A stretch of DNA of 64,000 nucleotides from an uncultured Prochlorococcus sp. (GTDB lineage: Bacteria; Cyanobacteriota; Cyanobacteriia; PCC-6307; Cyanobiaceae): NCBI GenBank assembly GCA_902625845.1, contig CACOCT010000002.1:62001-126000 (forward strand), in the 5' to 3' direction. The notes beneath the pieces are model-generated. The model did no database searches, was not told the origin of the DNA, and saw only the letters and a program-made list of their open reading frames with translations. Below, piece by piece: positions 13,885 to 28,233 of this stretch; the first letter of the stretch is position 1, and the number at the start of each line of letters is the position of its first letter. Both the position numbers and the translations under genes were made by a program.

Positions 13885-13974
13885 TAAAAAAAAAGACCCT
13901 TAAAAGGGTCTTTTTGAAATGAATTTTCAAGTGTTACCTTGTTTCCACTGATAAATTCATTCCCTCCTACACAC
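13885..13974 (-). ncRNA. Yfr2-family-like small RNA (copy a)
   Basis: Read leftward it starts GTGTGTAGGAGGG, carries GTGGAAACAAGGTAACAC in the middle and ends in the 13891-13914 terminator, giving about 90 nt. The same plan recurs at 21016 and 28139. The GGAAACA loop motif is the hallmark I know from the marine cyanobacterial Yfr2-Yfr5 family. A TATAAT box lies seven nt before the start (plus coordinates about 13981-13986). Which Yfr member it is cannot be decided. Confidence 0.8.
13891..13914. terminator. Bidirectional Rho-independent terminator
   Basis: A perfect hairpin AAAGACCCTT-AAA-AGGGTCTTT with A-run on one side and T-run on the other. It can end both the preceding plus-strand gene and the minus-strand Yfr2-like RNA. 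Confidence 0.9.
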
Positions 13975-14029
13975 AAATCAATTATAGTAATAATTAATTA
14001 AAAAAGAAAACTATTAATGTTTATCTAGT

Positions 14030-14053
14030 TCAACTGTCACATGTGACAGTTGA
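14030..14053. promoter_or_regulatory. Palindromic operator upstream of Yfr2-like copy a
   Basis: A perfect 24-bp inverted repeat whose central 20 bp are AACTGTCACATGTGACAGTT (14032-14051). Its near edge is 58 bp from the first base of the RNA. The identical 20-mer occurs at 21608, and related versions sit at the same distance before the other two Yfr2-like genes. The regulator is unknown. Confidence 0.8.
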
Positions 14054-19259: not shown

Positions 19260-19787
19260 GTAATCTTTAGGACATTAAATGATATTCATTACTTATAGAT
19301 TATCTAGACCAAAAATAATTTACAAAGTATTTTTTATTATTAATATAAAGACAATTTAGTGCCACTATATCAAAATAAAAATATCAAACATAACTAAGCA
19401 TAAATTAATTTCTGATTACTCAAGAACCTCTTCTAGATAAATTAATAATATAAAGAAAATATTCCCATTTGATAATTTTATTTCTTTATAAATTGACTAC
19501 CCCTATAAATTTATTAGTAATGTTTAATTTGTGTGTCGAATTATTTTCACTCAAAAAATAGACACAAGGCAACATTTGGTTTGTTATGACCAACAAACAT
19601 AATAATTTCATTTAGTCCATGCAATTATAAATAAATAAACTCTATTTTTACAAATTAAATAAATATTATTTCTTTAATCACAAAATATTTAAAGAAATAA
19701 ACAAAAAATTGATAAACCTATAAACTTTAAATTATTAAAAAATATATCTTTTACGAGAAGGTTATCTAAAGCTACACATAAAAAAAA
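19260..19787. other. Gap with a possible decayed Yfr2-like promoter and RNA
   Basis: A 528-bp stretch without a recognised gene. AATATTCCCATTTGATAATT at 19458-19477 matches the Yfr2-type operator at 14 of 20 positions (compared with 28061), and GTGTGTCG begins 54 bp later at 19531. The downstream sequence keeps GACACAAGG but lacks GGAAACA and a poly-T terminator, so it may be a relic. Confidence 0.4.
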
Positions 19788-20936: not shown

Positions 20937-20956
20937 AATTGGCACATGTTATAGAT
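20937..20956. promoter_or_regulatory. Operator upstream of Yfr2-like copy b
   Basis: AATTGGCACATGTTATAGAT, an imperfect version of the palindrome at 14032 and almost the same as 28061-28080. Its near edge is 60 bp from the first base of the RNA at 21016. Confidence 0.7.
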
Positions 20957-21015
20957 AAATAACATTCCACTTCAACCTTTCGCAGAAAAAAAATAAATAC
21001 CTTAATATAAAAGTT

Positions 21016-21108
21016 GTGTGTAGGAGTGGTTTTACTAACAAGTGGAAACAAGGATACACAGAATAGGTAAAGCCAGAAAAAGATCCTTAGAGATAAGGAT
21101 CTTTTTTT
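21016..21108 (+). ncRNA. Yfr2-family-like small RNA (copy b)
   Basis: Starts GTGTGTAGGAGTGG, carries GTGGAAACAAGGATACAC and ends in a strong terminator at 21077-21108 (AAAGATCCTT...AAGGATCTTTTTTT). The 5' GTGT and the internal ACAC can pair to close a stem. Length about 93 nt. An AT-rich AATATAA box lies just upstream. Confidence 0.85.
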
Positions 21109-21278: not shown

Positions 21279-21504
21279 TTACAAAAGTTGAATATAATCC
21301 AAATAATTTCTCAAAACATAACTATTGGAAATTAATTAAATGAACAATCAAAACTCATAATTTACTATATTGACTATTCTTGATACCTAATATCAATTTT
21401 TTTAGAAAATTACAATGAATATCTAATTCTCTCTTCAAACCAGTATTAGAAATCAAGAAAGAGCTTAAGGGATAGAACTCATTCTCTGGATTAGCTAAAT
21501 CAAG

Positions 21505-21550
21505 TGTTTTTTTTGTTTCCACTTTTTACTAAAATCGCTCATTCAAAAGC
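21505..21550 (-). pseudogene. Yfr2-like RNA relic on the minus strand
   Basis: Read leftward the stretch contains GATTTTAGTAAAAAGTGG followed by AAACAA...ACAC, similar to GGTTTTACTAACAAGTGG and AAACAAGGATACAC of the intact copies. Its expected start, 58 bp from the operator at 21608, has a TACAAT box. The 5' GTGTGT and the terminator are missing. Confidence 0.4.
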
Positions 21551-21607
21551 ATTGTAATTTTTTTAATTATTTATTTTCCAAAACATATACAGAATGGAAT
21601 GTCACGC

Positions 21608-21627
21608 AACTGTCACATGTGACAGTT
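21608..21627. promoter_or_regulatory. Perfect palindromic operator, possibly shared by divergent units
   Basis: AACTGTCACATGTGACAGTT, identical to 14032-14051. To the right, a TATAAT at 21669-21674 and a GTGTGTGTGAG start at 21683 follow 56 bp later. To the left, a Yfr2-like relic is placed at the matching distance on the other strand. Confidence 0.75.
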
Positions 21628-21719
21628 CGTAAAGAATAATATTCCAACTTTATATTTTAAATAAATAATATAATGTTTAATTGTGTGTGTGAGTTGCTAA
21701 AAATAGTTTAATTTTAATT

Positions 21720-22163
21720 ATGAAGAATCTTATTATAACTCTTATATTGGGTATTTCCTTACCTCTAAATGCTTATGAGAATATAGGAGAGCGCAGTAAT
21801 CGTGAAGCGTATGAGTCACAAAAAGGGTATGCATATGAAAACAAATGTTTTCGTTATGCATACAGGGAACAATATGTTCCAGGCAATTCAATATCGCCTG
21901 GCTATGTCAGATCTTACAAAGAAAAAGTTTCAATACCATGCAATAGTCCTCGCAATGTATTAAATCATAACCTTAATAAGACTGAACACCAAAATGCATA
22001 TGTAAAATATAGATCTGCACCAAAATGCGCTGGGAGTATGACTTTAGGAGGATTAATTGGAGGTGGACTGGCTGCATCACTATCAAACAGTGATGCATAT
22101 AGTTGGAGTATACCTTTAGGTGCAGTTTTAGGGTTAGGTATCGGTAATAGTGGATGCAAATAA
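21720..22163 (+). CDS. Secreted glycine-zipper protein
   Basis: A 147-aa protein with a short signal peptide (MKNLIITLILGISLPLNA). The middle is Tyr-rich with two cysteines. The C-terminal GLIGGGLAASLSNSD and IPLGAVLGLGIGNSGC form a glycine-zipper pair like the Rickettsia 17-kDa antigen type, suggesting the periplasm or outer membrane. Its predicted transcript begins GTGTGTGTGAG about 37 nt before the ATG, and the operator at 21608 precedes it, so it may share control with the Yfr2-like RNAs. Confidence 0.75.
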   Translation: MKNLIITLILGISLPLNAYENIGERSNREAYESQKGYAYENKCFRYAYREQYVPGNSISPGYVRSYKEKVSIPCNSPRNVLNHNLNKTEHQNAYVKYRSAPKCAGSMTLGGLIGGGLAASLSNSDAYSWSIPLGAVLGLGIGNSGCK

Positions 22164-27531: not shown

Positions 27532-27976
27532 ATTAGTGACGACAGAAGGAGATCTATTTGATAATCAGATTAAGAATGTTTTTAAAAATTTGTTTTTTTA
27601 GTAAAAGTGATAAATCACTTCTTCAGATTTTACTAAAGACTTTATTTTTAAAGTAATTCAAAATTAATCTCGGAAGTTTAATTTCTGATTACTTAACTTT
27701 CTTTCCTGAAAGGTTAGAGAAGTTAATTTACCTTGGTATTGCAGACCATGGATTAGTGAAGATCTAGTTGGTCAACCTTGGTCGAGTTGATCACCAGAAC
27801 TGTCGTGTTATTAAGTTAGTCGTTTTAAAAAGTTTTGCATTGTTCCTTTACATTACGTAAGAATTAAGAAATTTATTTACTTGTCTACCTATTTTCATTG
27901 CCCTTTCAATCATAAAAAGATTAATTAGTTATTAATAATGCAATTATTTGATACTTTAACGATTAGATTATTTACA
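27532..27976. other. Gap without recognised gene
   Basis: 445 bp. It contains TTGGTCAACC-TTGGTCGAG at 27768-27786 and a TTTAATTTCTGATTA motif at about 27680 that also occurs at 19408 and within the Yfr1-like RNA. No open frame of note. Confidence 0.4.
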
Positions 27977-28046
27977 TCAGAAAACTCCTCACACACTAAT
28001 TTCTGATTATTAAACGCCCCGATTCATAAGAATTAGGGTGTTTTTT
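27977..28046 (+). ncRNA. Yfr1-like small RNA
   Basis: Contains ACTCCTCACAC, 11 of 12 bases of the CACUCCUCACAC motif of cyanobacterial Yfr1. Here the motif sits in a loop closed by TCAGAAA/TTTCTGA (27977-27983 with 27999-28005). A terminator hairpin ACGCCC...GGGTGT with TTTTTT follows. Length about 70 nt. Yfr1 is usually described near guaB-trxA with the motif unpaired, so this may be a second or variant copy. Known Yfr1 targets include outer-membrane protein mRNAs. Confidence 0.65.
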
Positions 28047-28060
28047 AATAACTTTCGAGG

Positions 28061-28080
28061 AATTGGCACATATGATAGTT
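28061..28080. promoter_or_regulatory. Operator upstream of Yfr2-like copy c
   Basis: AATTGGCACATATGATAGTT, related to 20937-20956 and to the perfect palindromes. Its edge is 59 bp from the RNA start at 28139. It lies 14 bp after the Yfr1-like terminator. Confidence 0.7.
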
Positions 28081-28138
28081 AAGTTACATACCTCTAACAT
28101 ATGCCACGCATCGAGAATAAATGGCATAAGCTAATCAT

Positions 28139-28233
28139 GTGTGTAGGAGAGGTTTTACTGAAAGAGTGGAAACAAGGATACACTTGACTCAGTAATTCCA
28201 GAAAAAGACCTCTAGAAATAGGGGTCTTTTTTT
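28139..28233 (+). ncRNA. Yfr2-family-like small RNA (copy c)
   Basis: Starts GTGTGTAGGAGAGG, has GTGGAAACAAGGATACAC in the middle and a terminator AAAGACCTC...GGGGTCTTTTTTT at 28204-28233. About 95 nt. Highly similar to copy b over the first 45 nt. Confidence 0.85.

Follow-up and report, generated by a model that had tools for sequence, protein, structure and literature searches.

A protein gene with a Yfr2-type promoter and a putative Yfr2-like mRNA start in high-light Prochlorococcus

In a high-light Prochlorococcus-like genome (1.18 Mb, 59 contigs, 66% complete), the gene for a 147-aa protein is preceded by a palindrome that also occurs in front of the genes for the small RNA Yfr2, and this arrangement is conserved in all close orthologues that we identified. 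The gene is probably a protein-coding member of the CGRE1/Yfr2 regulon, within the full feed-forward model laid out below. It appears to have two links to the small RNA network, namely, the operator and a 5' end complementary to Yfr1/Yfr10. A small secreted-protein gene of many high-light Prochlorococcus species thus seems to share both its DNA switch and its RNA start with Yfr2.

Architecture and conservation of the promoter

In the window, that is, the whole stretch of 64,000 nucleotides that was analysed, the relevant features are:

13911..13978, minus strand: intact Yfr2 (Rfam Cyano-1 match, 63 bits)
14032..14051, strandless: second AACTGTCACATGTGACAGTT palindrome, an identical copy, before the intact Yfr2 at 13976
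20940..20953, strandless: degenerate palindrome core, before the Yfr2 at 21014
21012..21079, plus strand: intact Yfr2 (Cyano-1 and genus-model matches)
21483..21552, minus strand: decayed Yfr2 (Cyano-1) copy, divergent from the 147-aa gene across the palindrome
21608..21627, strandless: perfect 20-bp palindrome AACTGTCACATGTGACAGTT, a CGRE1-like candidate operator common to the 147-aa gene and the divergent Yfr2 relic
21631..21643, plus strand: AAAGAATAATATT block, kept in orthologous promoters (1.76 bits per column)
21669..21674, plus strand: TATAAT, putative -10 box of the 147-aa gene
21683..21696, plus strand: GTGTGTGTGAGTTG, putative mRNA 5' end, complementary to the Yfr1/Yfr10 motif
21720..22163, plus strand: gene for the 147-aa signal-peptide protein (phrog_767), with a glycine-rich C-terminal half and four conserved cysteines
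27976..28056, plus strand: Yfr10, with ACTCCTCACACAC, the segment proposed to pair with the leader of the 147-aa gene
28064..28077, strandless: degenerate palindrome core, before the Yfr2 at 28137
28135..28204, plus strand: intact Yfr2 (Cyano-1 and genus-model matches)

The palindrome at 21608 lies midway between the decayed Yfr2 and the promoter of the 147-aa gene. A preliminary description of this DNA had reported it as an identical 20-bp palindrome, and indeed it is perfect and the same as the copy at 14032-14051; two such matches to AACTGTCACATGTGACAGTT, as present in the window, were obtained in none of 100 shuffles. That description also referred to three other palindromes of this kind, of which one (14032) is identical, whereas the two located before the Yfr2 genes at 21014 and 28137 (TGGCACATGTTATA and TGGCACATATGATA, respectively) are degenerate, with 3 mismatches in the 14-bp core. 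The placement of the palindrome 56 bp ahead of a TATAAT-led start was accurate, with TATAAT at 21669-21674 and GTGTGTGTGAG at 21683, where we infer that transcription starts. The Red Sea TSS paper contains no data on the 147-aa gene.

A first search, covering 149 relatives, identified close copies of the 147-aa gene in 9 genomes, counting that of the window, and in all 9, the palindrome is located ~110 bp ahead of the ATG. With the window protein, the eight others share 69-76% identity. Once GTDB genomes had been scanned and the search extended to the whole family, the set reached 28 distinct close orthologues, and the strains that carry them include MIT 9107, MIT 9302 and MIT 9401. The palindrome is found at -107 to -110 from the ATG in 28 of the 28, its 14-bp core being exact in 26 and differing by one mismatch in 2. 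Among distant homologues, the palindrome was not found at this position; one of these (L122) has a single near-copy at -256, adjoining a Yfr2-like hit.

No stretch of the locus is better conserved than the palindrome, which has 1.94 bits per column of the alignment; the leader motif GTGTGnGTGAGTTG follows with 1.88 bits, whereas the initial 30 nt of the ORF have 1.51 and the flank upstream has 0.79. Thus, the conserved positions cluster in the operator and at what is presumed to be the transcript 5' end. The -10 region of the orthologues is AT-rich and less strict, with conservation below that of the palindrome. The AAAGAATAATATT block, three bases past the palindrome, is present at the protein gene and was not seen at the 14032 Yfr2 promoter; it is possibly a second regulatory element.

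To place these promoters in the context of the genus, 51 palindrome loci were sampled from the sites found (at most one mismatch in the 16-mer). Yfr2 lies downstream of the palindrome in 32 of these and the 147-aa gene in the other 19, so that no other gene follows the palindrome among the 51 sampled loci. The distance from the palindrome centre to GTGTG is 65 nt in 24 of the 25 distinct gene promoters and 66 nt in one; for the 28 Yfr2 promoters, it falls within 65-68 nt. The notion that a protein gene had come under a Yfr2-type promoter, put forward in the preliminary description, is therefore supported by the 28 orthologues, the near-equal spacing to GUGUG and the exclusive association of the sites in the genus. 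As far as the conservation indicates, this arrangement is old and common to many species, most of them without Yfr2 on the other side, and no local accident.

Complementarity of the leader to Yfr1 and Yfr10

Both Yfr1 and Yfr10 are present in the source genome and carry ACTCCTCACAC. The putative mRNA 5' end of the 147-aa gene, GUGUGnGUGAGUU, is near-complementary to the two RNAs, with predicted duplex energies of -17.0 (Yfr1) and -16.7 (Yfr10) kcal/mol for the window leader and medians of -17.6 and -18.9 kcal/mol, respectively, over the 28 orthologues, as a rule with a single bulged U; the 5' ends of intact Yfr2 give -16 to -20 kcal/mol with Yfr1/Yfr10. None of the 378 background ORF starts, which were taken from the window and the fetched loci and include L077, itself an orthologue that slipped past the exclusion filter, attains the duplex values of the window copy or the orthologue medians, and the Yfr10 median is attained by none of 1400 shuffles. 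The complementarity of the 5'UTR to ACUCCUCACAC is both beyond background and conserved. The variable base of the leader is mostly A or G, either of which can pair with U, and in two T variants, a 9-bp alternative register is opened. Structure prediction has the leader motif mostly paired inside the mRNA (unpaired probability 0.28), which speaks against a role as a target of these RNAs. A short upstream ORF in the leader (GTG TGT GAG TGA) was considered and rejected, given that it is not kept in the G and T variants.

These observations admit an explanation without control by Yfr1/Yfr10, namely, that the palindrome is the operator of the gene whereas the GUGUGnGUGAGUU leader is just an inherited Yfr2-like start sequence or else a promoter element. 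The motif is located at the transcription start, where the initial-transcribed sequence can matter, and its predicted partial pairing in the mRNA is also in line with this reading. However, the motif is conserved as strongly as the operator, most of its variants keep the pairing with Yfr1/Yfr10, and the duplex energies beat those of all background starts, and we regard such a leader without Yfr1/Yfr10 control as rather unlikely. Alternatively, titration of Yfr1/Yfr10 could be the main role of the leader, which would then serve as a decoy replacing the lost divergent Yfr2, with the protein secondary. It does pair with these RNAs about as strongly as Yfr2 and is kept where, at most loci, Yfr2 has been lost; but all 28 orthologues encode a conserved, intact protein, and further Yfr2 copies remain in the genome, which makes a primary decoy function improbable.

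The divergent Yfr2 and the history of the locus

The decayed Yfr2-like sequence that had been noticed on the other strand, at 21483-21552, was borne out: it aligns with Cyano-1 (RF01701) over the full length, at 16.9 bits, below the 41-bit gathering cut-off, and a model specific to the genus, derived from 22 of its copies, gives 33.4 bits (E = 7e-4). The GTGGAAACAA loop is kept and the 5' GUGUGUAGGAG motif is lost; the predicted duplex with Yfr10 amounts to -5.2 kcal/mol, compared to -16 to -19 kcal/mol for the intact Yfr2 copies. Judged by its sequence, this element is a Yfr2 relic and no functional member of the Yfr2 family. Elsewhere in the window, at 19527-19595 on the plus strand, there is a stretch with a weak resemblance to Yfr2 (genus-model score of 27 bits) that is probably another relic.

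An intact divergent Yfr2 lies opposite the palindrome in 4 of the 28 orthologous loci (L037, L038, L067 and L072) and a decayed one in 3 (the window, L083 and L085); in 21, no divergent Yfr2 was detected. The loci with a divergent Yfr2 are scattered over the gene tree, the inner forks of which are weakly supported. The 147-aa gene itself occupies at least three kinds of genomic place: the majority setting, between two flavodiiron-like genes beside alaS; a second one near purM (L064, L065 and L071); and variable regions (the window, L073, L077 and L086). On contig C44 of the source genome, the homologues of the flavodiiron-like genes are ~60 bp apart, which leaves no room for the 147-aa gene. 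The ancestral unit probably consisted of the divergent Yfr2, the palindrome and the gene, and would have moved, often with loss of the Yfr2 half; at the window locus, this half would have decayed while the gene half stays conserved. An earlier capture of the gene by a Yfr2 promoter is likely because CGRE1 at Yfr2 is known across marine picocyanobacteria.

If the palindrome served the decayed Yfr2 alone, its place before the protein gene would be a by-product of adjacency, and the window and some relatives do have Yfr2 or a relic thereof across the palindrome. Such a restriction to Yfr2 is nevertheless highly improbable: at the 21 loci without a detectable Yfr2, the palindrome is still intact at the fixed distance, and the spacer and leader on the gene side are likewise conserved. 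A functionless chance palindrome, for which nothing speaks beyond the general abundance of short palindromes, is already refuted by the fact that 28 of 28 orthologues conserve it, and is equally at odds with the shuffles and with the exclusive association with Yfr2 or the 147-aa gene in the genus.

Cyanophage sequences, the proposed circuit and known systems

The N terminus of the 147-aa protein is signal-peptide-like, and a search of Pfam and NCBIfam profiles yielded no confident function. Of 9 orthologues, 8 give a match to the glycine zipper 2TM profile (PF05433; best E 1.8e-4), and for the window copy, there is none at E <= 1. In the AlphaFold2 model (mean pLDDT 56), the confident part is a beta hairpin (about 43-72) alone, so that the model is of too low quality to suggest a fold. 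The phrog_767 profile is matched over residues 1-142 (E 2.4e-29), and this family is represented in 204 phage records, mostly of T4-like cyanophages, at identities that reach ~48% across 97% of the length. The family member adjoins gp32 in P-RSM4 (GU071099.1:2226-2660) and several other phages. For the name “cAMP phosphodiesterase” attached to the phage homologues, no support was found, including in the literature. Direct gene transfer between host and phage was not retained as an explanation: in a tree whose rooting is arbitrary, the phage proteins branch separately from the host clade.

The palindrome, too, occurs in viruses. The exact 20-mer is present in 47 viral contigs, and with a slightly degenerate pattern, 67 of the 69 distinct viral sites (contigs L178-L256 and L361-L402; for example, L233:3362-3381) are located just before one T4-like cyanophage gene family, here gene X, which encodes a small protein with the start ...AGPYVNVE..., annotated as DUF680 or hypothetical. 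These palindromes lie 31-131 bp ahead of gene X, mostly directly after TATAAATA-like late promoters, and their commonest asymmetric variant, TGGCACATGTGACA, is the same in the phage sites and the host. In 14 annotated phage records, there was no match to the palindrome within two mismatches. As a comparison set, 80 gene-X loci (L281-L360) were chosen by protein; many other phage copies of gene X carry an unrelated hairpin-forming sequence at the same place after TATAAATA, which suggests a variable-sequence 5' stem-loop role at this gene. Tentatively, the palindrome might be a host operator that was also taken over by cyanophages, such that the GntR/Yfr2 stress switch would govern a phage late gene as well. 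A serious alternative is that the phage palindromes are plain 5' stem-loops sharing the sequence by happenstance, for which the unrelated hairpins in other gene-X leaders argue, and against which the asymmetric variants do. The host secreted-protein family under the proposed switch is itself a common cyanophage gene, and the phage sites raise the question of regulatory DNA common to host and phage.

One viral contig (L131/L249, IMGVR_UViG_3300006350_000663; palindrome at L249:5522-5541) has cyanophage genes on one side and, on the other, a complete host module comprising the palindrome, promoter, leader and 147-aa gene. The junction falls exactly within the palindrome, with 96% phage identity before it and 97% host identity after it. 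Because this could reflect an assembly chimera, or else recombination, the contig was not taken as evidence.

In the account of Lambrecht et al. 2018 given in PMC6778093, CGRE1, the site of the MED4 GntR regulator (PMM1637), is reported at yfr2 only, with the motif placed in the Yfr2 promoters of marine picocyanobacteria. The palindrome is most likely CGRE1, the operator of a GntR of the PMM1637 type, the two being equated by position at Yfr2 promoters, not by letters; one GntR-family gene was found in the source genome, the assembly of which is incomplete. This regulator would raise transcription of both Yfr2 and the 147-aa gene from near-equal promoter geometry, and the transcript of the latter would start with the Yfr2-like 5' motif GUGUGnGUGAGUU, pairing with the exposed ACUCCUCACAC of Yfr1/Yfr10. 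In MED4, PMM1121 is repressed by Yfr1 via the 5'UTR, Yfr2 relieves this repression, and RNase E cleavage of Yfr2 is blocked by Yfr1/Yfr10 (PMC6778093). By analogy, Yfr1/Yfr10 would repress translation from the leader, and the co-induced Yfr2 would titrate them, lifting the restraint, which amounts to a coherent feed-forward loop that would act under nitrogen starvation or high light. The protein would, then, probably be switched on together with Yfr2 and fine-tuned by Yfr1 and Yfr10. The effect of the latter could also have the opposite sign: bound at the extreme 5' end, these RNAs could protect the mRNA rather than repress it. Prochlorococcus has very few regulators, and a protein gene on the Yfr2 switch, with a Yfr2-mimicking leader, would be a testable feed-forward circuit, the 147-aa protein providing a direct read-out of GntR/Yfr2 activity in cultured strains, for example MIT 9302 and MIT 9401.

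The cyanophage phrog_767 proteins, including the “cAMP phosphodiesterase” of T4-like GC 330, belong to the same family as the 147-aa protein (identity of about 46-48%, with up to 97% of the length covered), but the examined phage copies, L131 excepted, have neither the palindrome at that position nor a Yfr1-complementary leader. The CGRE1/PMM1637-yfr2 system of MED4 is alike in the palindrome and in the near-equal spacing from the GUGUG start; there, as far as the published account cited above extends, only yfr2 genes are involved, whereas here it is a protein gene, at 28 orthologous loci. In Nostoc, the targets of Yfr1 also include outer-membrane and cell-wall genes (PMC6974561). The Yfr1/Yfr10 targets PMM1119 and PMM1121 (porin-like; PMC6778093) share with the 147-aa gene a 5'UTR complementary to ACUCCUCACAC and a product of the secreted or envelope type; in contrast to these, the putative site of the 147-aa gene is Yfr2-like, lies right at the 5' terminus and is combined with a Yfr2-type operator.
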